Under the pieces are notes generated by a model that saw only the letters and a list, made by a program, of their open reading frames with translations, did not search any database and was not told where the DNA came from. A DNA stretch of 64,000 nucleotides. Source: Streptomyces venezuelae (GTDB lineage: Bacteria > Actinomycetota > Actinomycetes > Streptomycetales > Streptomycetaceae). Shown here piece by piece: positions 14,059 to 61,808 of this stretch. The stretch covers positions 744,001-808,000 of the forward strand of contig NZ_CP029192.1 in the NCBI RefSeq assembly GCF_008642315.1. The letters run 5' to 3'. Numbering within the stretch: position 1 is the first letter of the stretch; each line of letters opens with the position of its first letter. The position numbers were made by a program, and so were the translations under genes.

Positions 14059-14580
14059 TCAGCCGCCCTGTTCGGAGAGGGCTCCCACGGCCGGTTCACC
14101 CGGGGACGGGGCGAGTTCGCTGTAGCGCCGGAAGCCGTAGAGCAGGGCGCTCTCGTGGCGCAGCCGCTCGACCGAGCGCACCGCTCCGACGACGATCACG
14201 TGGTCGCCCGAGGGGTGGGTGCGCTCGACGGCGCACTCGGCGACGGCGTGCGCCGCCTCGACGAGCGCGGGGCTGCGGCCGCGTCCGAAGGGCCGCCAGG
14301 CGACGCGCTCGAAGCGGTCGGGCGCCCCCGACGCGAAGAGCGCGGCGACCCAGCCCGCCTCGCCGTGCAGCAGGTTGACCGCGAACGCGCCGCTGTCGAG
14401 CACGGCTCTCAGCGTCGGGCTGCCGCTGCGCAGACACGTCAGGAGCGTCGGCGGGTTCACGCTGAGGCTGCACAGCGAGGAGCAGGTCATCCCCCGTGGC
14501 CCCGCGCTGCCGTCCCGGGCCGTCACGACCGACACTCCGGTCGGGAACGACGCCATCATGTCGCGGAACTCGATGTCCAT
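14059..14580 (-). CDS. flavin reductase (halogenase partner)
   Basis: 173 aa short-chain flavin reductase with the split-barrel FMN-binding fold: MASFPTGVSVVTARDG, GMTCSSLCSLSVNPPTLL and GAFAVNLLHGE are standard family motifs. It uses NAD(P)H to make free reduced flavin. It lies nine bases after the stop of the tryptophan halogenase gene, which needs FADH2 from such an enzyme, so it is the probable dedicated partner. Length is normal. Confidence 0.88.
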   Translation of the reverse strand: MDIEFRDMMASFPTGVSVVTARDGSAGPRGMTCSSLCSLSVNPPTLLTCLRSGSPTLRAVLDSGAFAVNLLHGEAGWVAALFASGAPDRFERVAWRPFGRGRSPALVEAAHAVAECAVERTHPSGDHVIVVGAVRSVERLRHESALLYGFRRYSELAPSPGEPAVGALSEQGG

Positions 14581-14589
14581 GTGCCTCGG

Positions 14590-16152
14590 TCACACCCCGT
14601 CGCGCATGCGTTTGAAGTAGGCGTTCTGCGTGGGCAGGGTGCGGACCAGCGACCGCGCCTTGTCCTTGATGGCCTGGAACTCGGCGAGCGCGGCCTTCTC
14701 GTCGATCAGGTCGAGGGCGGGCGAGGGCCGGACGGGGATGCCGCCGGTGCCGAGCAGGATGCAGTTGTACGAGTAGGACGGCAGGCCGTGGTAGCGGGGG
14801 TGGACCGTACCGGCGTCGGGGACCTTGCTCTCCCACAGCTCCAGGCGCTCGGCTAGCGCGTCGGGCACTGCACGCGTCTTGGTGTCCCGCCAGTACTGGT
14901 TGTCCGCCCGCTTCGCACCGCGGTAGTGCAGGACGAGGAACTCCCGTACGCCGTCCATGACGTTCGCCAGCGCGCTGTTGTACTGCTCGCGCAGGGGGAG
15001 GTCCCAGTCGGTCGCCGGGTAGTACTTGACGAGCTGCTCGATCGCGTAGTGGATGAAGAAGATCCCGGTCGACTCCAGCGGCTCGACGAAGCCGCTGGAC
15101 AGGCCGATGGCCACGCAGTTGTTGACCCAGGAGCGGCGGCTGCGGCCGATCCGCATCCGGATGTGGTTGGCGGGCACGTCGGCCGCGGCGGGTCCGACGA
15201 ACTCGCGCAGGGTGCGTTCGGCCTCCTCGGGGTCCATGTAGTCGCGTGCGTAGACGTAGCCGGTGCCGATCCGGCTGATGAGCGGGATGGTCCAGATCCA
15301 TCCGGCGTCCTGGGCGGTCGCGGTGGTGCAGGGGCGGAGCGGTTCCTTGTCCATGTCCATGGGGACCTGGAGGGCGACCGCGCTGTCGTTGGGCAGGGTG
15401 TCCTGGTAGGAGACGAAGGGTTCCTCGAGGGCCTTGTTGATCAGGAGGCCGCGGAAGCCGGTGCAGTCGACGAAGAGGTCGCCGTCCAGGCGTCCGTGCT
15501 CGGCGGTCTGCACGTGCGAGAGCCAGCCGCGCTCGTCGAGTCCCACGTCCACGACGTTGTCGACGACGTGCCGCACCCCGCGCTGAGTGGCGTACTTCGT
15601 CAGGTACTTGGCGAGCAGGTGCGCCTCGAAGTGGTAGGCGTAAGGGAATTGGGCGCCCTGGTACTCGGCGATGGTGTTCGGCGCGGCCTCGCCCTCGACG
15701 AAGTCCTGTTCCAGGAGCCGGTTGTCGAGGTAGCGGGGGCTGCGGTTGCCGTCGATGAGGGAGGCCATCACGAAGCAGTCCACGTCGAACCGGTCGCTCG
15801 TGGGGTACCGCAGCCACCAGTCGGTGAGGGGGAAGCCCTTGACCGACCTGAGCTGCTCGAAGGGGTGGTAGAAGTGGTGCCCGGGTTCGCGCCAGTTCTC
15901 GAAGCGGACCGCGAGTTTGTACGTGGCGTTGCAGGCGGGCATCCAGTCCCGCTCGGCCAGACCGAGGAACTCGAAGAAGTGCCTGATGTCGCTGAACGTG
16001 GCCTCGCCGACGCCGATGGTGCCGACGTCCGCCGACTCCACGAGCGTGACGTTGATCCGGTCGCCGAAGGCCGCCGTCAGATACGCGGCGGTCATCCAGC
16101 CGGCCGTGCCGCCGCCGACGATGACGACGTCGCGTACGGGAGCATGCGTCAT
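14590..16152 (-). CDS. FAD-dependent tryptophan halogenase
   Basis: 520 aa. It oxidises chloride with FADH2 and O2 and chlorinates the indole ring of free tryptophan. The FAD motif GGGTAGWM is at residues 13-20; the catalytic lysine is Lys79 (YKLAVRFENW), the same number as in PrnA; the WxWxIP monooxygenase-blocking motif is at 285-290 (GWIWTIP); the substrate-side glutamate is in FVEPLESTGIFF (Glu360). Segments such as EATFSDIRHFFEFL and SYQDTLPNDSAVALQVP look closest, from memory, to tryptophan 6-halogenases (SttH, Thal, KtzR), so C6 is the likely site but unproven. It differs from the carrier-protein-dependent halogenases of ordinary glycopeptide clusters. ATG 16152 follows a GTGGGGAA site. 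Confidence 0.92.
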   Translation of the reverse strand: MTHAPVRDVVIVGGGTAGWMTAAYLTAAFGDRINVTLVESADVGTIGVGEATFSDIRHFFEFLGLAERDWMPACNATYKLAVRFENWREPGHHFYHPFEQLRSVKGFPLTDWWLRYPTSDRFDVDCFVMASLIDGNRSPRYLDNRLLEQDFVEGEAAPNTIAEYQGAQFPYAYHFEAHLLAKYLTKYATQRGVRHVVDNVVDVGLDERGWLSHVQTAEHGRLDGDLFVDCTGFRGLLINKALEEPFVSYQDTLPNDSAVALQVPMDMDKEPLRPCTTATAQDAGWIWTIPLISRIGTGYVYARDYMDPEEAERTLREFVGPAAADVPANHIRMRIGRSRRSWVNNCVAIGLSSGFVEPLESTGIFFIHYAIEQLVKYYPATDWDLPLREQYNSALANVMDGVREFLVLHYRGAKRADNQYWRDTKTRAVPDALAERLELWESKVPDAGTVHPRYHGLPSYSYNCILLGTGGIPVRPSPALDLIDEKAALAEFQAIKDKARSLVRTLPTQNAYFKRMRDGV

Positions 16153-16208: not shown

Positions 16209-16421
16209 CTAGCGGCCGCGCGCGTCCCCGCCGCTCAGCGTGATCGCGCCTGCCGGGCATCTCGCGGCGGCGCCGCGCACCGCGGCGGCCGCTCCCGATG
16301 CGGGCCGCGCCGCCTTGAGCAGCACCTTTCCGTCGTCGTCCGACTGGTCGAACACGGCGGGTACGTAGCTCATGCACAGGCCGGAGCCCGCGCACCGGCC
16401 GCGGTCGACGTGTACCTCCAT
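16209..16421 (-). CDS. single-cluster ferredoxin for P450s
   Basis: 70 aa ferredoxin of the type that pairs with actinomycete P450s. The cluster ligands are in CAGSGLC (residues 10-16) and CPAGAI (about residue 55), with Ala or Gly where a fourth Cys could stand, pointing to a [3Fe-4S] or atypical [4Fe-4S] centre. It lies 39 bp after the third P450 gene on the same strand and presumably delivers electrons to the three P450s. No ferredoxin reductase is present. Confidence 0.9.
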   Translation of the reverse strand: MEVHVDRGRCAGSGLCMSYVPAVFDQSDDDGKVLLKAARPASGAAAAVRGAAARCPAGAITLSGGDARGR

Positions 16422-16460: not shown

Positions 16461-17666
16461 TCACCAGGTGACGGGCAGCCGTTCCACCCCGTAGGCGGTC
16501 GACCGGACGCGGAATGCCACGTCCTGTACGGGCACCGCGAGCCGCAGGCCGGGAAAGCGCCGCAGCAGCGCCGTGTACGCGATGCGCAGTTCCATCCGGG
16601 CGAGGGCGGCGCCGATGCAGTGGTGGATGCCGTGCCCGAACGCGACGTGCGGCACGGGATCCCTGGCCAGGTCGAGCCGGTCGGGCTCGGCGGTCAGGTG
16701 CGGGTCGCGGTTGGCCAGCGGGATCGAGCAGACGACGGTGTCGCCCGCTCTGATCAGCCGCCCGCCGAGGGTGGTGTCCTCGACGGCGGTGCGGGGCGTG
16801 GGGGCGTGGGGCACCGACAGGTAGCGGAGCAGTTCCTCGACGGCGCGGTCCAGGGCGGCGGGATCGTCGCGCACCAGGGCGAGTTGGTCCGGGTTCTCCA
16901 GGAGGGCGAGCGCTCCGAGGCCGAGCATGCCGGAGATGTTGTCGAGGCCTGCGAGCATCAGCAGGACGCAGATGCCCCGCAGCTCCTTGTCGGTGAACTC
17001 GCTTCCGTGGTCGCGCACCAGCATGCCGAGGAAGCCGTCGTCGGGGTTCTTGCGCTGCCGTGCCACCAGGGCGGCGAGGTAGCGGGTGAAGGCGGAGCCG
17101 GCGGCCGTGCGCTCCTGGCGGCCGCGTCCCGTGGCGAGGTGGGCGTGGCAGCGGCGCAGGAAGTCGTCGCGGTCGTCGCGGGGCACGCCGATGAGTTCGC
17201 ACAGCACAGGCCCCGGGATCGCCGAGGCGAAGAGCTCCGCCAGGTCGGCGGGGTGCCCGGCCCGTTCCACGGCGTCGAGGCGTTCGGCGACGATGGCCTC
17301 GATGCGCGGCTGGAGTCTGCGCATCCGCCGTACCGTGAACTCCGGCGTGAGCATCTTGCGCAGCCGGGTGTGCTCGGGCGGGTCGTAGTCCATCAGGAGC
17401 CCGACGCCTTCGTCGGGCCGTTCCCCGTCGTCCTCGGCCGCTCGGCGCGAGCCGAAGCGGCGGCGGGTGGAGAACCTGGTGTGGTCGCCGAGGACCCGGC
17501 GCACTTCCTCGTGCCCCGTGACCAGCCACAGGGGCTCACCGCCCGCCCCGGGCGCCAGGCTGACACGGGTGACGGGCCCGTCGGCGGCGAGGCGCCGCAG
17601 GTCGTCGGCAGGGTCGAAGTGGGTGCGGCGGGTGTGCAGCGGTACCGGTGCGCTCTCGTGCGGCAT
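16461..17666 (-). CDS. OxyB-like cross-linking cytochrome P450
   Basis: 401 aa. The haem-thiolate motif is FGHGIHHCIGAALARMELR; the K-helix is EELLRYLS. The opening PLHTRRTHFDPADDL, the I-helix LAGLDNISGMLGLG and the stretch SVPHAPTPRTAVED closely recall OxyB, the P450 that makes the first aryl-ether link in glycopeptide antibiotics on the carrier-bound peptide. Asn replaces the usual I-helix Thr, as I recall for OxyB. I chose ATG 17666, which has AAGGGG five bases upstream; a duplicated start at 17690 adds eight residues. The gene starts just after the stop of the preceding P450 gene. Its expected substrate is the peptide on module 9, docked through the X-domain. Confidence 0.88.
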   Translation of the reverse strand: MPHESAPVPLHTRRTHFDPADDLRRLAADGPVTRVSLAPGAGGEPLWLVTGHEEVRRVLGDHTRFSTRRRFGSRRAAEDDGERPDEGVGLLMDYDPPEHTRLRKMLTPEFTVRRMRRLQPRIEAIVAERLDAVERAGHPADLAELFASAIPGPVLCELIGVPRDDRDDFLRRCHAHLATGRGRQERTAAGSAFTRYLAALVARQRKNPDDGFLGMLVRDHGSEFTDKELRGICVLLMLAGLDNISGMLGLGALALLENPDQLALVRDDPAALDRAVEELLRYLSVPHAPTPRTAVEDTTLGGRLIRAGDTVVCSIPLANRDPHLTAEPDRLDLARDPVPHVAFGHGIHHCIGAALARMELRIAYTALLRRFPGLRLAVPVQDVAFRVRSTAYGVERLPVTW

Positions 17667-17701
17667 GTCGCCCCTTACCTCGTGCGGCATGTCGCCCTTA
17701 C
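17655..17701. repeat. tandem duplication of RBS and start codon of the OxyB-like gene
   Basis: A 24-bp unit (17655-17678) is repeated as a 23-bp copy (17679-17701). On the coding strand each copy holds an AAGGG-type ribosome-binding site, a short spacer, and ATG-CCG-CAC-GAG. The two ATGs (17690 and 17666) are in frame, so either or both can start translation. The distal copy overlaps the TAA stop of the upstream P450 gene. Confidence 0.85.
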
Positions 17702-18813
17702 CAGGCCACCGGCAGCGTCTCCACGGCCTTCGACGTGAAGCGGAGTTCGTCGCGCGGCGCGGCGAGCCGCACCCCGGGGAACCTGCGGAGCAGTTCCGCG
17801 ATCGCGATGCGCAGTTCCATCCTGGTCAGCGGCGCGCCGAGGCAGTAGTGGATGCCGTGTCCGAACGCCATGTGACGGCTGTTGTCCCGGGTGATGTCGA
17901 TGGGTTCCGTCGGTTCCCCCGGCGAGTGGGTGTTGTTGGCGCCGAGCAGGGAGCAGGCCACGGGCTCCCCCGCCTTGACCGTCCTGCCCGCGAGGGTGAC
18001 GTCCTCCAGGGCGGTGCGCGGCGAGGCGTGCGAGATGATCGAGACGCTCCGGATCAGCTCCTCCACCGCGTGGTCGATGAGGTCCGGGCGCTCCTTGAGC
18101 AGGGCGAGCTGGTCCGGGTGTTCCAGGAGGGCGAGGATGCCGAGACCCAGTGTGCCGCCCACGTTCTGGATGAAGGAGGCGAGGAGGGTCGCGGCGGTTC
18201 CGGTCAGTTCGGCGGGGGTGAGGTCGTCGCCGTGGCGCTGGATGAGTCGGCCGAGCAAGTCCTCACCGGGGTCGCGGCGCTTTCGTGCCGTGAACTTGCT
18301 GAGGTAGACGAGGTAGGAGTTGCCCGCCGCGTCCCGCTGGTCCCTGTCGGGGTTGTCGATGCGGTTGGTGTCGAGGTGGCGGGCGAGTTCGGCCTGGTCG
18401 TCGCGGGGTATGCCGAGCAGCGCGCACCCGATGAGGCTGGTGGTGGGCCAGACGAAGTGCGGTACGAGGTCGATGGGCTGGGCGGCGCCCTCCATGGCGT
18501 CGAGGCGCTCGGTCACGATGCCTTCGACGAGGGGTTCGAGGACGCGCACCCGGCGGAGCGTGAACTCGCCGGTGAGCATCTTCCGCAGGCGGGTGTGCTC
18601 GGGCGGGTCGTAGTGCAGCAGGTTGCCGGGCTGCACGAGGCGCCGGGAGTCCTCGATGTTGTCGGCGGGCGGCAGTGTGGTGAAGCGGTCCGAGTCGCCG
18701 AGGATCGCCCGCACCTCGTCGTATCCGGTGGCGAGCCATGCGCGGTCCAGTGTCCCGGGAGGGGTGGTCTCGACGAGCGGCGACTGCTCGGTTTCGTCCA
18801 GTGGCTTGGGCAT
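17698..18813 (-). CDS. Oxy-type cytochrome P450 with atypical I-helix
   Basis: 371 aa. The haem ligand motif is FGHGIHYCLGAPLTRMELR; the K-helix is EELIRSVS. It belongs with the two neighbouring P450s (shared HYDPPEHTRLRKMLTGEFTLRRVR, LGLGILALLEHPDQLALL). Its N-terminus is about 25 residues shorter than theirs, lacking the HTRR-type opening. The I-helix reads LLASFIQNVGGTLG: both the conserved acid and the Thr of the usual (A/G)GxDT are replaced (Gln, Asn). It is presumably a cross-linking enzyme acting on the NRPS-bound peptide; which bond it makes is not deducible. ATG 18813 is preceded by GAAAGGA. Confidence 0.8.
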   Translation of the reverse strand: MPKPLDETEQSPLVETTPPGTLDRAWLATGYDEVRAILGDSDRFTTLPPADNIEDSRRLVQPGNLLHYDPPEHTRLRKMLTGEFTLRRVRVLEPLVEGIVTERLDAMEGAAQPIDLVPHFVWPTTSLIGCALLGIPRDDQAELARHLDTNRIDNPDRDQRDAAGNSYLVYLSKFTARKRRDPGEDLLGRLIQRHGDDLTPAELTGTAATLLASFIQNVGGTLGLGILALLEHPDQLALLKERPDLIDHAVEELIRSVSIISHASPRTALEDVTLAGRTVKAGEPVACSLLGANNTHSPGEPTEPIDITRDNSRHMAFGHGIHYCLGAPLTRMELRIAIAELLRRFPGVRLAAPRDELRFTSKAVETLPVAW

Positions 18814-18892: not shown

Positions 18893-20113
18893 TCACCACC
18901 GCACGAGGAGTTCGTCGACGCCGTAATTGGGCGTCCAGGTGCGGAAGCGGATTTCTTCGGCGGGCACCGCGAGGGTCAGTTCGGGGAACCGGCGCAGGAG
19001 CGCCGGAATCGCGATGCGGAGTTCCACGCGGGCAAGGACCGCGCCGATGCAGTGGTGGACGCCGTGGCCGAACGCCAGATGCCCGGAGTTGTCGCGGGTG
19101 ATGTCGAGCGTGCCCTGCGGTACGCCGTTCGACGGGGCGCCGCCCGCCGGGTCGCGGCTCACCGCGAGCAGCGAGCAGATCACGGACTCGCCCGCCCTGA
19201 TCAGCTGCCCGCCGACGGTCACGTCCTCCAGGGCGGTGCGGGGTGTGGCGTTCTGCACCGACGAGACGTACCGGATGAGTTCCTCCACCGCGGAGTCGAG
19301 CAGGTCGGGCCGGTCCTGGAACAGGGCGAGCTGGTCGGGGTGTTCGAGGAGGGCGAGCGGTCCGAGGCCGAGCATGCCGCCGATGTCCTCCAGGCCCGAG
19401 CCCATGATGGCGGCGGACATGCCGGCCAGCTCCTCGTCGGTCAGGTCGTCGCCGTGCCGCCGGATGAGCATGCCGAGCAGGTCGTCTCCGGGGTCGCGGC
19501 GCTTCTGCCGCACCAGCCTGTTCATGTACGTCATGTACGCGTTCACCGCGGCCCGTTGGCGTTCGCGTTCCTCACGGCTGGTGTGCCGGCCGAAGCCGGT
19601 GCCGGTCCTGCTGATGTTGAGGTTTCGGGCGATCTCGGCCGCGTCGTCACGGGGCACTCCGAGGAGCGCGCAGCCGACCAGGCCGGGGATGGGCCAGGCG
19701 AAGTGCCGGACGAGGTCGGCGGGCCTGCCCGCCCCTTCCAGCGCGTCGAGGCAGTGCTCGACGATCTCCTCGATGAAGGGCTCCAGCCTGCGGATGCGCC
19801 GCATCGTGAACTCGGGGGTGAGCATCCTGCGCAGCCGCGTGTGCTCGGGCGGGTCGTACTGGCGCAGGTTGCCGACCTCGATCTGGCGCTTGCCGCCGGT
19901 CCTGCCGTCGTCGGCCGGCAGCATGCTGAACCGGTCGTCGCCGAGGACGGCCCGCACCTCGTCGTATCCGGTCGCGAGCCAGTGACGGCTCGGGGCGCGC
20001 CCGCCGGTGTCCAGTTCCACGAGCGGGGTGTGCGCGCCGAGTTCGACGAGTTCCGGCACGGGTTCGATGCCGTTCCTGCGGGTGTGCGCGGACGTGCTCA
20101 CTGCCTTCGACAT
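18893..20113 (-). CDS. Oxy-type cytochrome P450
   Basis: 406 aa. The haem ligand motif is FGHGVHHCIGAVLARVELR; the K-helix is EELIRYVS; the PPEHTRLRRMLTPEFTMRRIRRLEP segment is typical of the Oxy group. The I-helix reads GSGLEDIGGMLGLG, with Asp in place of the usual Thr. It is first of three P450 genes after the last NRPS and probably forms one of the aryl cross-links while the peptide is held on the X-domain module. ATG 20113 was chosen over an in-frame GTG at 20137 because a GAAAGGG site lies just upstream and the conserved HTRR opening begins shortly after. Confidence 0.82.
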   Translation of the reverse strand: MSKAVSTSAHTRRNGIEPVPELVELGAHTPLVELDTGGRAPSRHWLATGYDEVRAVLGDDRFSMLPADDGRTGGKRQIEVGNLRQYDPPEHTRLRRMLTPEFTMRRIRRLEPFIEEIVEHCLDALEGAGRPADLVRHFAWPIPGLVGCALLGVPRDDAAEIARNLNISRTGTGFGRHTSREERERQRAAVNAYMTYMNRLVRQKRRDPGDDLLGMLIRRHGDDLTDEELAGMSAAIMGSGLEDIGGMLGLGPLALLEHPDQLALFQDRPDLLDSAVEELIRYVSSVQNATPRTALEDVTVGGQLIRAGESVICSLLAVSRDPAGGAPSNGVPQGTLDITRDNSGHLAFGHGVHHCIGAVLARVELRIAIPALLRRFPELTLAVPAEEIRFRTWTPNYGVDELLVRW

Positions 20114-20139
20114 TCCGGGGCCCTTTCGCCCTTTCACTC

Positions 20140-20230: not shown

Positions 20231-31495
<11,265 letters not shown>

Positions 31496-48800: not shown

Positions 48801-50498
48801 GACCACGGACGCACCGCTGTCGGCAAGCACGTAACCGAGGCGGTCCGGCGGATACTCCGGGTCCAGCGGGACAAACGCACCGCCCGCCTTCCACACCGCC
48901 AGCTCCGCAACGACCATGACGACACCCCGAGGCAGGCACAACCCCACCCGTAACTCGGGACCGATCCCCAGTGCCACCAGATACCGAGCCAGCCGATTCG
49001 CCCGCACCTCCAACTCCCCGTACGACAAAGCCTCCCCACCACACCGCACCGCCACCGCATCAGGCGCGTTCCGCGCATGGGCCGTGAACAGCTCAGGGAC
49101 GAGGGTGTCCGGGTGGGACACAGCGGTGGTGTTCCACTCCCGGACGACGCGTTCGCGTTCCGGTGCGTCCAGGATGTCGACGCGGGCCGTCGGGGTCGTC
49201 GGGTCGGCCGCGATCTGTCGGAGGACACGGATGAGGCGCCGCCCCAGTTCGGCGGCCTTCTCCTGGGGGATGAGGTCCGGCCGGGACGTGACGTGCACGT
49301 GGAGGTGGCGGTCGGTGGCGAGGATGCCGAGGGTCACCGGGTAGTTGGTCGCCTGGTGGCCCGCCGACGCGGTGAAGACGGGCAGGTCGGCGGGGGTCGG
49401 GCGGACGGGCGGCGTGGGGTAGTTCTCGTAGACCACGAGGGTGTCGAAGACCGATCCGGGGCCCGCGAGCTTCTGGATCTCGGCGAGACCCAGGTGCTGG
49501 TGGGCGATGAGGGCGGAGCTGCGCTCCTGGAGGCCGGTCAGCAGCTCGGTCATGGGCTGCGCGCCGTCGAGACGTACGCGGACCGGGAGCGTGTTGATCA
49601 GCAGGCCGACCATCGACTCCACGCCCGGCAGTTCGGCGGGGCGGCCCGCGACAGTGGCACCGAAGACGACGTCCGTGCGCCCGGTGAGGCGGGCGAGGAC
49701 CAGCGCCCACGCGCCCTGCACCAGCGTGTTCACGGTGAGACCGTGGGCGCGGCCCGTCTCCGTCAGGGCCCGTGTGTCCTCCTCGGACAGGCGCAGGGGT
49801 GTCTCTTCCGGCAGGACGAGCGCGCCGCTCGGGTCGGCCGGTGCCACGAGCGTCGGCTCGTCGGTTCCGGCCAGCTCCGCCCGCCATGCCGCGCGCGCGG
49901 CCTCCTTGTCCTGGCGTCCCAGCCACGCCAGGTATGCACCGTAGGAGGCCGCGCGCTTCAGTACGGACGGGCCGCCGCCCGCCTCGTACACCTGTGAGAG
50001 CTCGTTCAGGAGGACCGGCATCGACCAGCCGTCCATCAGGAGGTGGTGGGAGGTCACGACGAGGCGGTGGCGGTCCGTGCCGAGTCGGAGCAGGAGGAGG
50101 CGGAGCAGTGGGGGGACGGTCAGGTCCAGGCGCTGGTCGCGTTCCTGTGCGGCCAGTTTGCCGGCCTGGTCGGCCAGGTCCTGCGGCTCGGTGAGGTCCG
50201 AGAGGTCGACCTCACGCCAGGGCAGCGGCACGTTGCGGGTGATGAGCTGTACCGCCTCGCCGGACTTCCTGCGGTGGAAACTGGCCCGCAGCGCCGCGTG
50301 CCGGTCGAGCAGCGTCTCCCAGGAGGCGCGCAGCCGGTCCGGGTCCAGGGGGCCCGTCACCTCCAGGAGGAACTGGACGGCGTAGACGTCGGGGCCCCGG
50401 TCGTCGAAGTCCGCGTGGAACAGCAGCCCTTCCTGCAGTGGCGACAGGGGCCACACTTCGGCCAGGGCCGAGCCGTGGGCGGCGGTTGAAGACTTCAC
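45804..50498 (-). CDS. NRPS2: module 4 (C-A-T-E)
   Basis: 1564 aa single module. C4 is D-Cl type ([22 protein letters not shown] ~150), matching the E domain at the end of NRPS1. A4 has the code DALSVGTVM (core FDAAVLD ~660), for which I recall no assigned substrate. The carrier has GGDSI (Ser ~1010) and the E domain has HHLVVDG (~1193) and GFNYMGRF, so residue 4 should be D. The GTG start at 50498 overlaps the NRPS1 stop (GTGA). A 117-bp gap with a pyrimidine-rich coding strand separates it from NRPS3. The A core is nearly identical to A2. Confidence 0.94.
48206..49030 (-). repeat. near-identical A-domain core, A4 copy (partner A2 at 56206-57030)
   Basis: About 825 bp of A4 matches A2 of NRPS1 at an offset of exactly 8000 bp, with only scattered differences. 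Both have the code DALSVGTVM. A9 (about 24.5-25.4 kb) carries a related but more diverged version. Confidence 0.88.
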
Positions 50499-53400
50499 CG
50501 GGACAGGCCTCCCTCGAGCTTCGCTGCTATCGCTTGGAACTGGTCGACCTCGTCCTGCTCCAGGTCGAGGAGGTGGAAGTCGGACGGGGTGTGTCCGCCC
50601 GCGGCCGGGTCGTCGGTGTGGGCGGCGAGACCGGCGAGCAGCCGTACCCAGGTCCTGCCGATCCGCTCGACGTCGGCCTCGGCGAGGAGCCGTCGCGGCC
50701 GGCTGAGCGTGACGGTGAGTTCCGGGCCTTCCGGTGTGTCCCGGACGACCGCGATCCCCTCCAGTACGTGCGGGGCCGGTGTGTCCGAGCCGTCGGTGCC
50801 GCCGGCCCCGGCGGGTCCCGCGAGCTGCCAGGCACCGACCGCGGTTTCCGCCTCGGCCGCCGCGGCGAACCGGCCGAGGTAGTTGAAGCCGATCTCCGCC
50901 GCCGGTGCGGCCCGCAGAACCGGGGCCGTACGGGGGTTCAGATGGCGCAACAGGCCGTAGCCGAGTCCGTCGCCCGGGACCGCCCTCACCTGCTCCTTGA
51001 CGGCCTTCACCAACGTACCGGCAGCCCTGCCACCGGCCATAGCGTCGTCCAGGTCCGCGCCGGTCACGTCGAGACGCACCGGATGCGAGCTCGTGAACCA
51101 GCCCACGGTCCGCAGCAGGTCGGTCCCGTCCAGCGGCTCGCGCCCGTGCCCCTCGATGTCGAGCAGCAGCCCGGATGCGGTGCCGGGCCGCCAGTGCGTC
51201 ACCGCGCCCGCGAGGGTGGCGAGGAGCAGCTCGTGCACACCGCAGTGGAAGGCGGCCGGTGTCCGGCCGACCAGCGTCTCGACGTGCTCGGGCGGGACGG
51301 TCCACGAGCGGCGGCACAGGGTACGGGACGTGTCGACGGCCGGGTCCAACTGGCCGCCCCACATGGGCTGTTGCCGCTCTCCCAGCAAGGTCAGCCAGTC
51401 CGGCAGCTCCGCGAGCCGGGACTCGTCGGCCGCCTGCGCGGTCAGCAGTTCGGACCAGCGGCGGAAGGACGTGCCCACCGGGTCGAGCCGTGGTGTCCGG
51501 CCCGCGGCCGCCGCCTCGCACGCGGCGCGCAGGTCCGGGATCAGCACGCGCCAGGACACGCCATCCACCACGAGGTGGTGGGCGACGAGGACCACCCGGC
51601 CGGTGCGGTCCGGGCCCGCGTCCACCCATACCGCCCGCAGCATCGTTCCTGCCGCCGGGTCGAGCCCGCGGGCCGCTTCCCGTGCCGCCCGGCCTGCGAT
51701 CTCGTCCAGGGTCCGCGGGTCGGAGGCGAGCTCGTCCAAAGCCCCGGTGTCGGAGACGCGTCCGTCCAGGACCCCGGCCCCGGTCCCGGCGGTGGCCGCG
51801 TCGACGCGGGACACCGCCGCCCCTGCCTCGACCGAGCCGCGCTCGCCGACGATCAGCTTCGGTTCGCCGGGCACCGTGCGGGCCCGCAGCATGTCGTGGG
51901 TGTCCAGGAGCGCGGCGACACCGGCCGTGAGGACGTCGAGGCCGAGCCCCGCCGGTACGCCCAACGTCATCCATTGGGTGAAGTCCGGGCCCACGACCTT
52001 CTCCCCGAAGGCCCGCATCACCGGCGTCCACGGCACCTCGCCGATGCCGACGTCGTCCGCCGCGGTCTCGTGTCCGGCTAGCTCGGCCACCTCCGCGAGA
52101 CGTTCCGGCGTCTTCTCCTCGAAGACCTGCCGGGGCGTCACGACGAGACCCGCGCGGCGGGCCCGGGACACCAGCTGCATCGAGCTGATCGAGTCGCCGC
52201 CCAGCTCGAAGAAGCTGTCCTCGGCACCGACCCGGTCGAGCCCCAGCATGTCGGCGTACAGCGAGCAGAGGATCTCCTCGGTGGCGGTCCTCGGCTCCCG
52301 GCTCGTGACGCGGCCCGCGAAGTCGGGGGCGGGCAGCGCGGCCCGGTCGACCTTGCCGTTGGCGGTGCGGGGCAGGGCGTCCAGGACCACCACGGCCGTC
52401 GGCACCATGTACTCGGGGAGTACGCCGGTGACGTACTCGCGCACCGTCCGGCCGTCGACCGCTTCGCCGTCCGCGGCGACGTAGCCGACGAGGCGCCGCT
52501 CGCCCGGCCGGTCCTCCCTGATCGTCACGGCCGCGTGGTGCACCCCGGGGCAGCTCGCGAGGGCGGTCTCGATCTCGCCGGGCTCGATGCGGTGTCCCCG
52601 GATCTTGATCTGGTCGTCGGCGCGGCCGGCGAAGACGAGCTCACCCTCGTTGGTCCAGCGGACGACATCGCCGGTGCGGTACATCCGGCTGCCGGGACCG
52701 AACGGGTTCGCCACGAACCGCTGGGCGGACAGGCCCGCGCGGCCCAGGTAGCCGCGGGCGAGCCCGGCACCGGCGACGTAGAGCTCCCCCGCCACGCCCG
52801 CGGGCACGGGGCGCAGGGACGTGTCCAGGACGTACGCCTGGGTGTTGGAGACCGGGCGCCCGATCGGGGGCGGCCCTTCGCTGTCGCGGATCAGGGCGGT
52901 CGTCGAGATGATCGTCGACTCCGTGACCCCGTACTGGTTGTACATGGCGCGTCCGGTCGACCAGCGCCTGCGCACCTCCGCCGGCACGGCCTCGCCACCG
53001 GTGATGAGCAGGCCCAGGTCGGGCAGTTCTTCCGGTGGCATCTGCGAGAGGTAGGTCGGGGGGATCGCGGCGTGGGTGACGCGGCGGGTGCGCAGGAGAC
53101 GGGACAGTTCGTCGCCGGAGATGTCGAGGCGGGTGGGGGCGAGCACGAGACGGCCGCCCGCGCACAGGGTGGGCCAGATGTCCGCCAGGGAGACGTCGAA
53201 GCTCGGCGAGACGAGTTGCAGGACCCGGCTGTCGGGGTCGATGGCGTAGCGCCGCACGTTCTCCGCGATGAGGTTGCGCAGGCCTTCGTGCGAGACAGTG
53301 ACGCCTTTCGGGGTGCCGGTGGAACCCGAGGTGTAGATGACATACGCGGCATGCGACGGCAACAACACCCCCAACCGCTCCCCCTCCTCCAACGGACCCG

Positions 53401-56400
53401 GCGCACACCGCCCGATCTCCGCCGCCACCACCGGGTCATCCACCACCACGACCCGACCCCCGAACCCCTCCGGCACCACCCCCCGCGACCCCACCGTGCA
53501 CACCACCACCGACGGACCCACATCACCCACCACAAACCCCACCCGCTCCACCGGATAACCCCCATCCACCGGAACGAACACACCCCCCGCCAACGACACC
53601 CCCAACAACGCCACCACCAAAGACACAGACCGCTCACCCACCACAGCCACCCGCACCTCAGGCCCCACACCCAACCCCACCAAAAACCGCGCCAACCGCC
53701 CCGCCCCCACCCCCAACTCCTCGTATGTCAAACGCACTTCACCCGACACCAACGCCACCCCACCCGACGACACACACACCTGCCGGGCGAACAACTCGGG
53801 GGCCAGTGCGTCCGAGACGGGTGCCGCCGTGTCGTTCCAGCTCCGCACGATCCGCGTGCGTTCGGCGGGTGCCAGGAGGTCGATCTCGCTGAGGCGGAGG
53901 TTCGGGTCGGCGGCGACCTGTTCCAGGACGCGGGCGAGCCGGTTCGCCAGGGAGAGGGCCGTGTCGTGGTCGAAGAGGTCGGTGGCGTAGAGGATCTCGC
54001 CGTCGAGGCCGGCAGGAGCTCCGTGTTCGTCGCGGCGTTCGACGACGGACACGGCCAGGTCGAACCGGGCGGCGAGTTCGGGCGGCAGGGGCGCCGGGCG
54101 GACGTCGACGCCCGGGAGGTCCCAGGTGACCTCGGGAATGTTCTGGAGGGCGAGCATGACTTGGAACAAGGGGTTGCGCGAGAGCGAGCGGGTCGGATTC
54201 AGCTCTTCGACGAGGCGCTCGAACGGGACGTCCTGATGGGCATACGCGGCCAGATCCGCGGTCCGCACCCGCTCAAGAAGCTCGGTGAACGTCGGATCAC
54301 CACTCACATCGGCGCGCAGCACCAGCGTGTTCACGAAGAAGCCCGCAAGCTCCTCCAAAACCGCATCCTCACGGCCCGCGGTGGGCGTACCGACCGTGAT
54401 GTCATCACCCGCACCCACACGGGACAACAGCAGGACGAGCGCGGCGTGTACGACCATGAACATCGTCGCCCGACCCTGCCCCGCCACCCCCACCAGCCGC
54501 GCATGCGTCTCCGCATCCGCCGCCACCGGCACCAACCGCCCCCGGAACGACGGCACCGCAGGACGCACCCGATCCACCGGCAGCAGCAACTCCTGTGGCA
54601 AGGCCTGCAACGTGTCGCGCCAGTAAGCCAGTTGACCGCTCAGAACACTCGCCGGGTCATCCAGCTCACCCAACACCTCCCGCTGCCACAACGCATAATC
54701 CGCATACTGCACCCGCAGCCCCGACCACCCCGGAGCCCGCCCCTCACACCGCGCCCCATACGCCGCCTCCAAATCCCTGGCCAACACCCCCATCGACCAG
54801 CCGTCCACCGCCACGTGATGCGCCACCACCGACAACACACACTCACCCACACCGGCCGTTACCAGGCACACCCGCCACGGCAGATCGGTGCGCAGGTCGA
54901 AGCCCGTCGCCAGCTGGGCGGCGAGCGTGCGGTCGATGCCGATGCCGGGGCCGTTGTCGGTCCCGTCCGCGTCCCGCACCTCGCCCTGCACCTCATCGAC
55001 CCGCAGCACGGTCAGAGGTGGGCGTCCCGCGTCGCCATGCCTCACCTGCTGGTGGGGGACGCCGTCGATATCGGGGAAGACGGTCCGCAGGCTCTCGTGG
55101 CGATCCGCCACATCCCCGAGCGCCGCCTCCAGCGCCGCCACGTCCAGCAGACCGGAGATGCGTAACACCAGCGGCAGGTTGTACGCGGACGCCGCCCCCG
55201 GGACCGTCTCCTCCAACCGGTTCAAGAACCACATCCGCTGCTGAGCGAACGACAACGGCACCACATCCGGCCGCACCCGCACCGCCAACGCCGGACGGCC
55301 CCCCGCCGAACCCGCGGACTCACCCACCCACCGCGCCAACCCCGCAACCGTCGGCGCCCCGAACAACTCCCCGATCCCCACCTCAACATCCAGCACCGCT
55401 CGCACCCGAGCCACCAACCGCATCCCCGACAGCGAATCCCCACCCAGATCGAAGAAGCCGTCCTCGATCCCGACCCACTCCAGTCCGAGGACCTCCGCGA
55501 AGAGGCCGCACAGGATCTCCTCGGTCTGCGTCCTCGGTTCGCGCCGGGTGACGCGGGCGGCGAAGTCGGGGGCCGGGAGGGCGGCGCGGTCGAGCTTGCC
55601 GTTGACGGTGAGCGGCAGCGCGTCCAGGACCAGCACGGCCGCCGGCACCATGTACTCGGGCAGGGCTTCGGCCGCGTACGCGCGCAGTTCCTGGGGATCG
55701 ATGTCGCAGCGTTGCCGTTGCTGTTGGCCCTCACGCAGTCGTTCGTTGGGCACGACGTAGGCGACCAGGTGTTTGTCGCTGCCCGGTCCGCCGTCCTGTC
55801 GGGCCATGACGACCGCCTGGCCCACCGCTTCGTGCCGGGTCAGCACCGCCTCGACCTCACCGGGCTCGACGCGGAACCCGCGTACCTTCACCTGGTCGTC
55901 CGCGCGTCCGGCGAACGACAGCTGCCCGTCTGTCGTCCAGCGGGCCAGGTCACCGGTGCGGTACATGCGCGGCCCGCCGCCGCCCCCGTCCTCGCCCTCG
56001 GCGAACGGGCACGCCACGAACCGCTCCGCCGTCAGGTCCGGGCGCCCCACATACCCTCGTGCGAGGCCCGGCCCCGCGATGTACAGCTCGCCGACGACCT
56101 TCGGCGGGACCGGGTGCAGGAACTCGTCCAGCACGTACAGCCGTACGTTCCCGAGCGGGCGTCCGATGGGCGGCGCCTCGTCGTCGGGCAGGATCCCGGC
56201 GTGCACGGGTCCCGCGGTGGTCATCACGGTGGCTTCGGTCGGGCCGTAGGTGTTCCACACGCGTGCCTGTGGCGTCCACCGGCTCGCGAGGTCGGCGGTC
56301 AGCAGCTCGGCGCCGAGGACCCAGTTGCGTACGCCAGGCACCGAGGCCGGATCCAGCACACCCAGCAGGGAAGGCACCACGCTGGCCGTCGTCACCCCCG

Positions 56401-59400
56401 CCGACTCGATCATCGCCGCCAGCGCGGAGGGCTCGGCCCGCTCAGCGGCGGAAGCGATCGCCAACGTGCCGCCACCGGACAACGTCACCGCCACGTCCAG
56501 CACCGCCGCATCGAAACTGAACGACGCGAACTGCAACACCGAGACACCCTCGCCCACACCCAGCACCGGACCCATCGCCGCCACCAGATTCGCCACGCCC
56601 CCATGCGCAACAGCCACACCCTTAGGGCGACCCGTCGAACCCGACGTATAGATCACATACGCAAGCTGGTCTCGGGTCGGCCGCCGACCGGGGGTGGACG
56701 GCGACTCGGCCTCCAGCGCCCCTGCGACGTCCGCGTCGTCCAGCAGCACCACGTGCGCCCCGCCCACGGGCACCGCCGCGAGGGAGTCCGCGACGCCCAG
56801 GACCACGGACGCCCCACTGTCGGCGAGCACGTAACCGAGACGGTCCGGCGGATACTCCGGGTCCAGCGGGACAAACGCACCGCCCGCCTTCCACACCGCC
56901 AGCTCCGCAACGACCATGACGACGCCCCGAGGCAGGCACAACCCCACCCGCGACTCGGGACCGACCCCCAGTGCCACCAGATACCGAGCCAGCCGGTTCG
57001 CCCGCACCTCCAACTCCCCGTACGTCAGGGACGTCTCGCCGCACCTCACTGCGACCGCCCCCGGCGCACGGGACGCGCACCCCTCGAAGAGTTCGGGCAC
57101 CGACGCCTCCGGCACGTCGGTCGCCGTGTCGTTCCAGCGCCGCACGATCCGCATGCGCTCGGCGGGTGCCAGGAGGTCGATCTCACTGAGGCGGAGGTTC
57201 GGCTCGGCGGCGACCTGTTCCAGGACGCGGGCGAGCCGGTCCGCCAGGGACTGGGCCGTGTCGTGGTCGAAGAGGTCGGACGCGTAGAGGATCTCGCCGT
57301 CGAGGCCCGCCGGGACCCCGCGCTCGTCGCGGCGCTCCGTCAGGGTCACCGCCAGGTCGAAGCGTGCGGCCGGCGCCTTCATCGACGCGGAGCGCACCTC
57401 CACGCCTTGGAGCCGCCACCGCGGTTCGGGCACGTGGTCCAGGGCGAGCATCACCTGGAAGAGGGGGTTGCGGGACACCGACCGCGTCGGGTTCAGCTCT
57501 TCGACGAGGCGCTCGAAGGGGACGTCCTGATGGGCATACGCGGCCAGATCCGCGGTCCGCACCCGCTCAAGAAGCTCGGCGAACGTCGGATCACCACTCA
57601 CATCGGCGCGCAGCACCAGCGTGTTCACGAAGAAGCCCGCCAGCTCCTCCAAAACCGCATCCTCACGGCCCGCGGTGGGCGTACCGACCGTGATGTCATC
57701 GCCCGCACCCAGACGGGACAACAGCAGGACGAGCGCGGCGTGTACGACCATGAACATCGTCGCCCGACCCTGCCCCGCCACCCCCACCAGCCGAGCGTGC
57801 GTCTCCGCGTCCGCCGCCACCGGCACCAACCGCCCCCGGAACGACGGCACGGCAGGACGCACCCGATCCACCGGCAACGTCAGTTCCTGCGACACCCCGG
57901 CCAAAGTGTCGCGCCAGTACGCCAGTTGACCGCTCAGGACACTCGCCGGGTCATCCAGCTCACCCAACACCTCCCGCTGCCACAACGCGTAATCCGCATA
58001 CTGCACCCGCAGCCCCGACCACCCCGGAGCCCGCCCCTCACACCGCGCCCCGTAGGCCGCCTCCAAATCCCTGGCCAACACCCCCATCGACCAGCCGTCC
58101 ACCGCCACGTGATGCGCCACCACCGACAACACACACTCACCCACACCGGCCGTCACCAGGCAGACGCGCCACGGCAGTTCGGTGCGCAGGTCGAAGCCGT
58201 GGCCCGCCTCCTCCGCCAGCACTTCCTCGGTCCGGGACGCGGTGCACTCCACGATCAGCAAGGGAGGCCGGCCCGCTTCCCCCTCCAGGACCTGCTGACG
58301 GGGAACGCCGTTCGTCTCGGGAAAGACCGTCCGGAGGCTCTCGTGCCGATCCGCGACGTCCCCGAGTGCCGCCTGCAACGCGATCGCGTCCAACGCGCCC
58401 GAGATCCGTAGGGTCACCGGCAGGTTGTACGCGGACGCCGCCCCCGGAACCGTCTCCTCCAACCGGTTCAAGAACCACATCCGCTGCTGAGCGAACGACA
58501 ACGGCACCACATCCGGCCGCACCCGCACCGCCAACGCCGGACGGCCCCCCGCCGTGCCCGCACGCTCACCCACCCACCGCGCCAACCCCGCAACCGTCGG
58601 CGCCCCGAACAACTCCCCGATCCCCACCTCAACATCCAGCACCGCACGCACCCGAGCCACCAACCGCATCCCCGACAGCGAATCCCCACCCAGGTCGAAG
58701 AACGAGACGTCGGTGCCGACCCGGCCCAGGCCGAGGATCTCGCCGAAGAGTCCGCTCAGGACGTCCTCCACGGGGGTCGCGGGGCCGCGTACCGTCCCCG
58801 TGCCCGCGAAGTCGGGCGACGGCAGAGCAGCCCGGTCGAGCTTGCCGTTGACGGTGAGCGGCAGCGCGTCCAGGACCAGCACGGCCGCCGGCACCATGTA
58901 CTCCGGCAGCCGCCCCGCCACGTATGCGCGCAGCGACTCGGCGGACACCGCACACCCGCCGCCGTCCGGCACGACGTAACCAACGAGCCGCTTCTCACCG
59001 CCCGGCACGTCCTGCCGCGCCACCACCACGGCCTGACCGACCCCCTCGTGCCCGGCGAGCACCGACTCCACCTCAGCCGGCTCCACCCGGAACCCACGGA
59101 CCTTGACCTGCTCGTCCGCACGCCCCACGAACAGCAGCTCACCACCCGCCGTCCACCGCACCAAGTCACCCGTGCGGTACATCCGCCGCCCGACCCCATC
59201 ACCGAACGGAGACGCCACGAAACGCTCCGCCGAAAGCCCCGGCCGCCCCGAGTAGCCCCGCGCCAGCCCCGACCCGGCGACGTACAACTCCCCCACCAGG
59301 CCGGCGGGCACCGGTTGCAGCGCCGCGTCGAGGACGTATGCCTGCCGGTTGGCCAGTGGGCGGCCGATGGGCAACGTCCGGCTCGCCTCCGCTTCCGGGC

Positions 59401-61723
59401 CCAGCAGGTGGGTGGTCGCGCAGAGGGTGATCTCCGTCGGCCCGTACAAGTGCCGTACGGCCACCTCAGGACAGGCCTCCCGCACCCGTGCGACCGCACC
59501 CGCGGGCACCACGTCCCCACCCGTCAACACCTCACGCAGACCCGCGAAGCACTCCGGCGACGCCTCCGCCAGCACCCGGAACATCCCCGCCGTCACATGC
59601 ACCGCCGACACACCGTCACGAACTGCCGCTCGGATACGGCCTGCACCCACCGGCCCCGGACCCGCGACCACCACCCGGCCGCCCGCCACCAACGGCACCC
59701 ACACCTCGAACAACGACACGTCAAACGCGTGAGGGGCATGCATCAGCACCGCGTCACCGGGAGTCAGCGACCATCCGGAGTCCCCGGCCAAGCCCGCCAC
59801 GGAGCCGTGGGGCACCACCACCCCCTTCGGCACCCCCGACGACCCGGACGTGTACATCACATACGCCGCATCGCCGCCGCCCACCTCCACCGCAGGCCCG
59901 TCCGCACGGCACGCCGAGACAGCCGCACGGACACGCGGGTCGTCCACCACCACCCGCCGCCCGCCAAAGACCGCAGGGATCACACCGCGATACGCCTCCG
60001 TGCACACCACCGCTGCCGGCGCCGAGTCCTCCAGCAGAAGCGCCACCCGCTCCGCCGGATACTCCACATCCACCGGCACGAACGCCGCCCCCGCCCGCCA
60101 CACCCCCAGCAACACCACGATCAGATCCACGGAACGCTCCATCACGACCGCGACACGGTCGCCCCGGACCACTCCTTGGTGCGCGAGATGCGACGCCAGG
60201 CGTCCCGCGGCGCGGTCCAACTCCACGTAGGTGAGGCGCTGTTCGCTGTCCTCCACCGCCACCGCGTCCGCCGACCAGGCGAGGTGGCGGGCCAGCAGCT
60301 TCGGCACGGAGTCCGCCGCGGGAGCGGACGGCCCTTCCGTGGCGTTCCAGCGATTCAGCACCTGGGCGCTCTCAGCCCCGTCCATCAGAGGTACCGCCCC
60401 GACCGGCAGCGACGGGTCGGCCGTCGATCGTTCCAGGAAGAACAGGAAGGCACCGAGTGCGGCCCGGAGCCAATCTCGTTCGTACAGCGCGGAGTTGGCC
60501 TCGAACGTGATCTCCATGTCCTGGCCCTCCGACGCACCGCTCACCAGCACGCCGAACTCCTCGACGCGGCGGCTCGACAGGTCGCGCACGACGGACCGGT
60601 GGCCGCCGAACGACAGGGTTTCGCCGGCCCTGGGCATGACGTTCACGTACGGCCCGAAGTGCCAGCGGTCGCCCGACGGCCAGTTGAGTTCGCGGCGCAG
60701 CCGTTCTCCTCGCATGCCCTGGTGGTCGAGGAGGGCGCCGATCTCCCCGTCCGTCGTCCGTGCGAGGTCCAGGAGGCTCGTGGCCGCGGTCACCGGGACG
60801 CGGAGCGGCAGGATGTTCGCCATCGTGCAGGGCGTGCGCCGGGCTCGGTCGCCGGTGCGGCCCGCTACGGGGAGGCTCAGGATCGCCTCGTCCGTTCCGC
60901 CGAGGCGGCCGACGAAGGCGGCGACCGCCGCGACGACGAGGCGTGGCCAGCTCGCCTCGGCGCGGGCGGCCGCCGCGCGCAGTGCCGCGACGGCGTGCGA
61001 CGGCAGGTGGCCGGTCTCGCGCAGGATCTCGCCGTCGCTCACGCCGGGCGTGGCGTGGCCCGGGACGCCGGTCAGGTCGGGGCGGTCCGCGAAGCGCTCG
61101 TGCCAGTACCGCCGGTCGGTCTCGTGGCGTTCCGCAGTGCGGCGGGCCGATTCGTCCTCCAGCAGGGCGTGGAGCGGGGCGTGTCGTGCCGGGGGGTGGG
61201 GCCGTCCGGTGAGGAGCGCCGTGTAGATGTCCGCTGCGCGGTCGGCGAGCAGGGAGCAGCCGTAGGCGTCCATCAGGAGGTGGTCGTAGCGCTGGTACCA
61301 GATGTGGTGATCCGGGGCGAGGCGGAACAGTGCGTGACAGAAGAGGCGGTCGGCGTGGGAGGTGATCTCCTGGTCGAGTTCCGCCCGCATCCACGCCTCG
61401 GCGGCCTTCTTCGGGTTTTTGTGCGCGGTGAGGTCGTGGAAGTCGAGGAGGGGGCGTGGGCTGCTCAGGTCTCCGGATTTCGGGAGGGAGAACGTCATGT
61501 GCGCTCCGCCCGCGCCGTCGTCCTCGAATCGCGCGCGGAGGATTTCCGTCTCGTCCGTCAACTGCCGCAGCGCACGTTCGAACAGGTGCGGCTCGACGGG
61601 CCCGCTTATGTCGACGTACTGCCCGACGCTGTACAACCGGCGTGAGCCCGATACGCGTTGAGCCAGCCAGATTCCCTCCTGGGCCTCGAGGAGGGGCAGA
61701 GTGCGAGCAGCGTTGCCGTTCAT
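50495..61723 (-). CDS. NRPS1: starter C plus modules 1-3 (Hpg first)
   Basis: 3742 aa. Order: starter C (DHLLMDA ~147), A1, T1 (GGDSL ~1014), C2 (HHVAVDG ~1202), A2, T2 (GGDSL ~2093), C3 (HHVAVDG ~2302), A3, T3 (GGDSI ~3177), E3 (HHLVVDG ~3381). C2 and C3 are L-Cl type ([14 protein letters not shown]). Codes: A1 DVFHLGLLC (Hpg); A2 DALSVGTVM (unassigned); A3 DVAAIGQII with an unusual YGVTES (unassigned). The first C domain has no upstream partner in the window, so it either acylates residue 1 or is vestigial. I chose ATG 61723 with AGGGGGA just upstream; ATG 61762 adds 13 residues and would leave only 46 bp to the StrR-type site. The C-terminal [18 protein letters not shown] helix is a docking donor for NRPS2. 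Confidence 0.94.
54201..54860 (-). repeat. duplicated C-domain segment (partner 57495-58154)
   Basis: About 660 bp of C3 is nearly identical to the same part of C2 (57495-58154), at a constant offset of 3294 bp. A second stretch, carrier end to C start, is also shared (about 55215-55452 and 58454-58691). Confidence 0.87.
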
Positions 61724-61808
61724 CATTCCCCCTGGCCGAGCGGTGTCCCTCGGCTGTTCCATCTGTCCGGGCCGTTCCTACCGGCTGAGTCGTACGAGGG
61801 CGAGAGCC

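Follow-up and report, generated by a model that had tools for sequence, protein, structure and literature searches.

A 64,000-nucleotide stretch of the Streptomyces venezuelae genome (hereafter the window, G000:C1:744001-808000 of a one-contig 8.94-Mb genome) probably carries a type V glycopeptide cluster of the corbomycin kind, whose product would be chlorinated and switched to 3,5-dihydroxyphenylglycine (Dpg) at residue 4. All the cluster genes inside the window lay on the minus strand. Four nonribosomal peptide synthetase (NRPS) genes were followed by three cytochrome P450 genes, a 4Fe-4S ferredoxin gene, a tryptophan halogenase gene, a flavin reductase gene and the gene of a Na+/H+-exchanger-like transporter, the last three being called here the cassette. 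The initial annotation had proposed a chlorinated, aryl-cross-linked type V nonapeptide, which is still the best reading of the evidence, with the chlorotryptophan part kept as a prediction. The family and its mechanism are already known and the cluster is not a new class. As far as can be told from the open literature, the novelty lies in the chlorotryptophan predicted for a corbomycin-type peptide and in the swap seen in module 4, and a prior description is a real possibility.

The domain order was read by profile hidden Markov models (HMMs) built from the window. With C, A, T, E and TE for condensation, adenylation, thiolation, epimerization and thioesterase domains, X for the X-domain and A* for a degenerate adenylation-like domain, NRPS-A was C-A-T-C-A-T-C-A-T-E, NRPS-B (whose GTG start overlaps the stop of NRPS-A) was C-A-T-E, NRPS-C was (C-A-T-E)x3 and NRPS-D was C-A-T-E-C-A-T-X-A*-TE. 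The specificity codes of modules 1 to 9 were DVFHLGLLCK, DALSVGTVMK, DVAAIGQIIK, DALSVGTVMK, DVFHLGLLCK, DASTVAAVCK, DASTVAAVC (followed by a gap), DGLSVGTVMK and DALSVGTVMK. Two related clusters, G322 and G465, showed the same nine-module layout, with codes in the order Hpg-DALS-DVAA-Hpg-Hpg-Tyr-Tyr-DGLS-DALS (Hpg, 4-hydroxyphenylglycine) and small letter changes in G465. This order agreed at all nine positions with the published residues of corbomycin, Hpg1-Dpg2-Trp3-Hpg4-Hpg5-Tyr6-Tyr7-Dpg8-Dpg9 (PMC7567792), and because of this match DALSVGTVMK and DGLSVGTVMK are read as Dpg and DVAAIGQIIK as Trp. The window agreed with the same order in eight of the nine modules, and its module 4 carried a Dpg code. 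By codes, the Trp module stands two before the central Hpg and a Tyr module two after it (Trp3-Hpg5-Tyr7), which is the type V pattern. Since modules of G432, G472, G380, G320 and others escaped the code finder, these clusters enter the comparison only through the codes that were read.

The E domains of modules 3-7 kept the HHxxxDG catalytic motif. The E domain of module 8 (27227-28246) was degenerate, with DHLVMDA, and module 1 opened with a degenerate C domain showing DHLLMDA in place of HHxxxDG. The two motifs of the window share the form DHLxMDA (with V in some relatives), and both were also degenerate in G322 and G465. The stereochemistry of the peptide would follow from these E-domain motifs.

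The best PDB sequence matches of the X-domain were the glycopeptide X-domains 4tx2/4tx3 (409.6 bits) and 6m7l_B (373.1 bits), the next match being at 293.7 bits. Its HRIATDD motif is that of an inactivated C-type domain, HRxxxDD/E, before a TE, and Xkis carries HRxxxDE (PMC6565677). Between X and TE sits A*, in which none of the motifs A5, A7 and A10 was found. The same arrangement was present in 14 of the 15 parsed X-bearing sets (the window, L001, G322, G386, G389, G380, G320, L004, G465, G406, G457, G472, G432 and G422), and A* was not called in the A40926 cluster (L002). A* appears to be what remains of an additional module that was lost, its C domain having turned into the X-domain.

The OxyB/OxyC-type P450 (16461-17690) matched OxyB chains in the PDB at 536 bits, and OxyE, OxyA and OxyB chains were among the top matches of the two others, P450_2 and P450_3. 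The PRDD motif was present in all three; PxDD/PRDD has been described as an X-domain contact (PMC6565677). Judged by sequence, the resemblance of the X-domain and the Oxy P450s to their glycopeptide counterparts is beyond chance. The features noticed initially were recovered: nine modules over four colinear NRPS genes (domain parse and codes), Hpg codes at modules 1 and 5 and Tyr codes at 6 and 7, an HRxxxDD X-domain before the TE with known glycopeptide X-domains on top of the search against the PDB, three Oxy-type P450s, and the ferredoxin, the tryptophan halogenase with its reductase and the antiporter (Pfam, PDB sequence matches).

In a tree of 44 P450 sequences, the window P450s grouped with their counterparts in G465, G406, G224 and G457, and the grouping with the G465 and G406 counterpart had supports of 99/97, 100/99 and 100/100 for the three enzymes. 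The groups of P450_2 and P450_3 adjoined (89/87 for the pair, at least 100/99 for each) within a Streptomyces type V branch (99/98), apart from OxyE and OxyA of A40926 and A47934. This topology suggests that the OxyE-like enzyme of the family may have arisen from an OxyA-like one. For corbomycin, a bifunctional OxyC (C-O-D and A-O-B), OxyE (F-O-G; phenolic Dpg-Hpg) and OxyA (DE; Trp-Hpg) have been tentatively assigned (PMC9023744), and the window P450s would correspond to this OxyC, OxyE and OxyA set of the crb cluster. The OxyE-like link at residues 2-4 would then be, by analogy, the teicoplanin F-O-G ring shifted by one residue. The two crosslinks of GP6738 are also present in corbomycin (PMC7567792), which does not exclude more links in the latter. 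A corbomycin made with two P450s, modelled on G322, was considered and dropped after PMC9023744 and G465 showed three. The P450_3 of G322 (G322:C1:8139353-8140435; 355 aa) has an open frame that has lost the I-helix region, and the peptide of this strain may lack one of the links. S.PNR 29 has no room for P450_3 between the NRPS end (8760) and its OxyA-like gene (8828).

The halogenase gave full-length matches of 949.7 bits to 6nsd, which we take to be BorH, and 858.5 bits to the tryptophan 6-halogenase 5hy5. Free-tryptophan halogenases are marked by the flavin site, the catalytic Lys and Glu and WxWxIP, all of which were found in 14590-16152, with the motifs NATYK, FVEPLES and WIWTIP. The regioselectivity site reads LPS in the window and LPP in G457 and S.PNR 29; LPP in SttH versus FET in PyrH affects 6- versus 5-chlorination (PMC5071727). 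The gene was the only full-length halogenase found in its own genome (460.5 bits, two other matches being below 26). A search of 14 genomes at E <= 1e-60 gave a halogenase in five, namely G457 (96%), S.PNR 29 (88%), G322 (82%), G422 (65% and 63%) and G433 (65%), and none in the nine others (G465, G406, G224, S. silaceus, G432, G434, G472, G404 and G394). It lay on the same contig as the P450s in G457 and S.PNR 29, approximately 150 kb from them in G322, and elsewhere in G422 and G433. The cassette follows, on the same strand, the ferredoxin gene in the window and G457; the halogenase and reductase genes of S.PNR 29 come after the OxyB/C-type gene. Module 3 was available from two halogenase-bearing clusters, the window and S.PNR 29, and in both it reads THAAIPPT around code position 278; in all four clusters lacking an in-cluster halogenase (G322, G465, S. 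silaceus and G224) it reads THLATTPT. THAAIPPT would fit a pocket changed for a bulkier tryptophan. From these data, the cassette should supply chlorotryptophan, most likely 6-chloro, for module 3.

We propose the following pathway. The four NRPS genes would build Hpg1-Dpg2-Trp3-Dpg4-Hpg5-Tyr6-Tyr7-Dpg8-Dpg9, a conversion from module 2 having replaced Hpg by Dpg at residue 4. The halogenase and the flavin reductase would make the chlorotryptophan that module 3 loads. With the peptide on the last carrier protein, the X-domain would recruit the three P450s in turn: the OxyB/C-type enzyme would close Hpg5-O-Tyr7 and may add a fourth link, the OxyA-like P450 would join Trp3 to Hpg5 and the OxyE-like P450 residues 2 and 4. 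The TE would then release the peptide. Calculated without further tailoring, its [M+H]+ would be 1515.388, 1517.404 or 1519.419 with one Cl and four, three or two links, and 1481.427, 1483.443 or 1485.458 without Cl; the corbomycin order with four links and no Cl would give 1465.432. For GP6738 the same calculation gave 1437.4582, the published value being 1437.4588. By analogy with corbomycin, the target would be peptidoglycan, with autolysins being blocked.

Several points weigh against this pathway. The ten code letters of module 3 are identical in the window, in G322 and in the halogenase-free G465, and only their neighbours differ. These neighbours also track relatedness in a small and related sample of two versus four, and the two groups of module 3 differ at 44 positions, 8 of which fall in an end gap. 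The halogenase might serve another pathway, and both the chlorinated product and the code-based substrate uptake are sequence predictions. Since the indole of complestatin is joined at C6, a 6-chloro substituent would block this position. The published OxyE link is Dpg-Hpg, and the pair predicted here is Dpg-Dpg. Finally, the precursor supply gene dpgA (see below) is present in G432 and G472, where the code finder missed most modules and read no DALS code. It is possible, with a rather low probability, that the product is a plain, unchlorinated Dpg4-corbomycin and that the cassette belongs elsewhere or is silent, as would agree with the unchanged code of module 3, with G465, G406 and G224 giving no halogenase match at the threshold used and with the distance between halogenase and P450s in G322; this explanation has to account for a cassette adjoining the ferredoxin gene or, in S.PNR 29, the OxyB/C-type gene, for the only full tryptophan halogenase found in the genome, and for residues beside the module-3 pocket that differ along with the halogenase.

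With chlorine on C6 of Trp3, the OxyA-like P450 would have to couple C7, C5 or N1. A new ring topology, in which chlorination ahead of assembly dictates the cross-link site, together with a Dpg2-Dpg4 link created by a natural core swap at the residue used by the OxyE-like P450, is a speculative outcome that we consider unlikely. In misaugamycin the tryptophan is reportedly joined through an N-C link, an outcome that blockage of C6 might promote. There is a minor chance that the product is misaugamycin or another type V compound of the corbomycin family that has already been described, since five further peptides of this family, rimomycin A-C and misaugamycin A/B, have been published (PMC10221674). 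The accessible text of the open papers retrieved for corbomycin, halogenase and tryptophan contained no such cluster. Rimomycin comes from S. rimosus (PMC13372681); the proteins of S. rimosus and S. chrestomyceticus were only 50% and 55% identical to P450_3 (among the best 120 of 1050 listed), and rimomycin is therefore unlikely to be the product of the window. No product was found for this cluster in the open literature searched, whose scope did not extend to the rimomycin and misaugamycin account.

Module 4 showed a mosaic structure. Over 780 bases, from 48998 down to 48219 and read in thirteen 60-base steps, its nucleotide identity to module 2 was 93-100%. At the upstream border the identity was 80% in one 60-base step, then 48-60%, and 46-67% further upstream; downstream it was 70-78% for three steps, then 80-92% for four. 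The two modules share exact repeats of 204, 145 and 83 bases. In steps of 40 residues, the C domain of module 4 (residues 1-360) was 62-90% identical to module 4 of G322 and G465. Residues 481-760 were 85-100% identical to module 2 of the window and only 24-58% to module 4 of G322 and G465. Residues 761-920 were similar to all the modules compared, 2 and 9 included, and from residue 921 on the identity to module 4 of G322 and G465 was 39-92%. Module 4 of G406 was excluded from this comparison, as its NRPS-A/B looks collapsed (one 1644-aa gene). Gene conversion from module 2, with replacement of the adenylation core, is the best reading of the tract, and this swap should turn Hpg4 into Dpg4 relative to corbomycin. 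An assembly artefact hiding a genuine Hpg module 4 is very improbable: NRPS repeats do collapse in some assemblies, apparently so in G406, but here the two copies differ within the tract, the C domain before it and the module end after it are module-4-like, and the genome is a single contig. The contig of S.PNR 29 breaks in module 4 before the code and helps little on this point. Its residues 481-560 are like module 2 (34/40 and 33/40, versus 21/40 and 20/40 to G465), and residues 561-614 are near neither (15/32 and 7/14 to module 2 versus 14/32 and 3/14 to G465). This strain may or may not share the swap. The probable module 4 of S. silaceus (L183) reads Hpg-like.

Other variations of the modules were visible. 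The A domains of modules 3 and 7 of the window (53694-53328 and 34849-34483) share exact repeats of 214 and 152 bases, apparently another conversion tract. NRPS-A of S. silaceus (L184) contains four or more A domains, and three Dpg-type codes precede the Trp code there. Module 1 of S.PNR 29 (L180) has a Dpg-type code.

The genes for precursor supply were located past the window's end. The dpgA gene, approximately 6 kb beyond it, matched its equivalog model at 652.8 bits (cut-off 425), and dpgA, an Hmo/HpgT-like fusion, a prephenate dehydrogenase gene and an HmaS-like gene were found 5-12 kb beyond it. On the upstream side lies the two-component pair, and beyond the window's end come frames recognised by eye (ABC transporter, MbtH, dpgC-like and dpgB-like), together with an alpha/beta hydrolase, dpgA, the fused FMN-dehydrogenase/aminotransferase and the prephenate dehydrogenase. 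The fusion (L105:6818-9064) joins 4-hydroxymandelate-oxidase-like and aminotransferase domains in a single 748-aa protein; its two parts have their matches at different positions in L001 and G386. A gene on the opposite strand falls into the NCBIfam class of 4-hydroxyphenylpyruvate dioxygenases and is read as HmaS from its neighbours. All five clusters with DALSVGTVxK codes (window, G322, G465, G406 and G380) have dpgA, and none was seen in the stretch fetched for L001, G386 and G422, the three clusters without this code. The reading of DALSVGTVMK as a tryptophan code was dropped once dpgA had been found and G322 and G465 had given the corbomycin order. A tryptophan-rich chlorinated peptide, with tryptophan loaded by modules 2, 4, 8 and 9, is largely refuted and of negligible likelihood. 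In its favour, DALSVGTVMK is nearer to Trp codes than to the Dpg code of A40926, DPYHGGTLCK; against it, dpgA lies beside the cluster and the DALS/DGLS codes of G322 and G465 fall at positions 2, 8 and 9, which are Dpg in corbomycin.

The cluster probably exceeds 14059-61762, from the MacB-type transporter (8377) to approximately 12 kb past the window's end. An ABC ATPase and a MacB/FtsX-type permease (Pfam) stand about 2.3 kb beyond the Na+/H+-exchanger-like transporter, and the permease was found at 74.6-89% in 11 fetched cluster sets (L001, G056, G224, G322, G380, G386, L004, G465, G406, G472 and G432). At the other side, the response regulator of the two-component pair is 71% identical to one near the presumably complestatin-like cluster L001 and 79% to one near the A40926 cluster, and relatives of the histidine kinase at 74-77% adjoin the clusters of G322, G465 and G406. 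The coordinates are collected in Table 1.

Table 1. Features of the corbomycin-type cluster in the window (position 1 is the first base of the window)
Feature	Position	Strand	Evidence
Response regulator of two-component pair	63416..64000 (frame on to 64126, outside the window)	-	Pfam Response_reg, Trans_reg_C
Sensor histidine kinase	61989..63401	-	HisKA, HATPase_c, HAMP
NRPS-A, modules 1-3 (predicted Hpg1-Dpg2-Trp3), E in module 3	50495..61762	-	profile HMM parse, codes
Degenerate N-terminal condensation domain of module 1 (DHLLMDA)	60359..61705	-	Pfam Condensation, 166 bits
NRPS-B, module 4 (C-A-T-E), predicted Dpg4	45804..50498	-	parse, codes
Module-4 A-domain stretch, best read as copied from module 2 (around 56418-56923), spanning the specificity pocket	48219..49058	-	nucleotide identity, exact repeats
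NRPS-C, modules 5-7, E in each (predicted Hpg5-Tyr6-Tyr7)	31548..45686	-	parse, codes
NRPS-D, modules 8-9 (predicted Dpg8-Dpg9), degenerate E in module 8, then X, A*, TE	20231..31495	-	parse, codes
X-domain (HRIATDD), predicted docking platform for Oxy P450s	22328..23695	-	PDB sequence matches 4tx2/4tx3, 6m7l_B
A*, degenerate adenylation-like domain between X and TE	20984..22327	-	Pfam AMP-binding, 106.8 bits
Thioesterase domain	20231..20983	-	Pfam Thioesterase, 123.9 bits
P450_3, taken as corbomycin OxyE equivalent (predicted phenolic link of residues 2-4)	18893..20137	-	PDB, tree, PRDD
P450_2, taken as corbomycin OxyA equivalent (predicted Trp3-Hpg5 link, DE)	17698..18813	-	PDB, tree, PRDD
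OxyB/OxyC-type P450 (predicted C-O-D link Hpg5-O-Tyr7, possibly also A-O-B)	16461..17690	-	PDB, tree, PRDD
4Fe-4S single-cluster ferredoxin	16209..16421	-	Pfam Fer4_15
Flavin-dependent free-tryptophan halogenase, predicted 6-halogenase	14590..16152	-	PDB matches, motifs
Flavin reductase	14059..14580	-	Pfam Flavin_Reduct
Na+/H+-antiporter-like transporter	12689..14053	-	Pfam Na_H_Exchanger, 186 bits; 94% in G457
MacB/FtsX-type permease and ABC ATPase, conserved beside type V clusters	8377..10340	-	Pfam

The distribution of relatives was surveyed with the P450s. P450_2 was matched at E <= 1e-80 in 13 of the 394 genomes of the family, and P450_3 at E <= 1e-90 in 24 of 199 relatives, the own genome being included in both counts; many of the P450_3 matches were at only 46-50% and need not be of the corbomycin kind. 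In the sample of 199, matches to P450_3 of at least 66% were seen in G457, G465 and G406. A protein search with P450_3 (7999 candidates scored, the best 120 of 1050 listed) gave, among the proteins listed, Streptomyces sp. NPDC093510 and NPDC029674 (88%), S. jumonjinensis (73%), S. alfalfae (69%) and a few others. Among the named genomes, the best 80 of at least 596 stretches were covered, and these surveys surely missed further relatives. Larger X-A*-TE clusters with dpgA were visible in G472:C1:8325001-8405000 and G380:C2:8480001-8560000, the G472 cluster having approximately 10 modules, a second X-like call and three P450s nearest to P450_3.

The comparison of the window, S.PNR 29, S. silaceus, G224, G465 and G322 suggests that residues 1 and 4, the number of modules, the halogenase and the third P450 vary on one frame. 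A natural congener differing from corbomycin in two defined ways would test the roles of residue 4 and of the tryptophan ring. The module-4 tract would represent a natural swap of an adenylation core (approximately 260 residues) in an assembly line, with both borders readable, and might guide engineering. Type V glycopeptides act on autolysins and are untouched by D-Ala-D-Lac resistance (PMC7567792).

Among the named systems, the clusters of the heptapeptides A40926 (L002) and A47934 (L007) have the X-domain and the Oxy family in common with the window. They differ by four P450s, with OxyE and OxyA on separate branches, and the A40926 cluster also by the absence of a called A* between X and TE and by its Dpg code, DPYHGGTLCK instead of DALSVGTVMK. 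L001 (S. chartreusis NBC_00851), G386 and G389, which we take to be complestatin-like from their residue order, share the X-A*-TE ending and OxyA-like and OxyB/C-like P450s, with the MacB permease in L001 and G386. G386 and G389 have seven modules, with codes Hpg-Trp-Hpg-Hpg-Hpg-Tyr-Hpg, versus nine in the window; L001 and G386 have two P450s and no dpgA in the stretch fetched, and L001 carries a different, glycopeptide-type halogenase (18358-19851, recognised by eye). The halogenases 6nsd, 5lv9 and 5hy5 (SttH) match that of the window over their full length, with the catalytic motifs and LP at the regioselectivity site, whereas the window enzyme has LPS for LPP and sits in a glycopeptide cluster. 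Kistamicin is likewise of type V and its X-domain recruits OxyA and OxyC, but it has seven residues, two P450s and a chlorophenyl ether rather than a chlorotryptophan (PMC6565677). GP6738 is, like the predicted product, a type V nonapeptide with a Trp-Hpg-Tyr core (PMC7567792). The closest system is corbomycin (crb, Streptomyces sp. WAC01529), with nine residues, type V, Hpg and Dpg, eight of nine codes in order, and OxyC, OxyE and OxyA-type P450s (PMC7567792, PMC9023744). The initial statement that the cluster could not be matched to a described compound thus fails for the module order, eight of the nine codes and the P450 set, and stands in that the match to this characterised cluster is one module short. 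With G465 and G322 taken as stand-ins for the WAC01529 cluster, the window differs from corbomycin by Dpg instead of Hpg predicted at module 4 and by the added halogenase-reductase-antiporter cassette.

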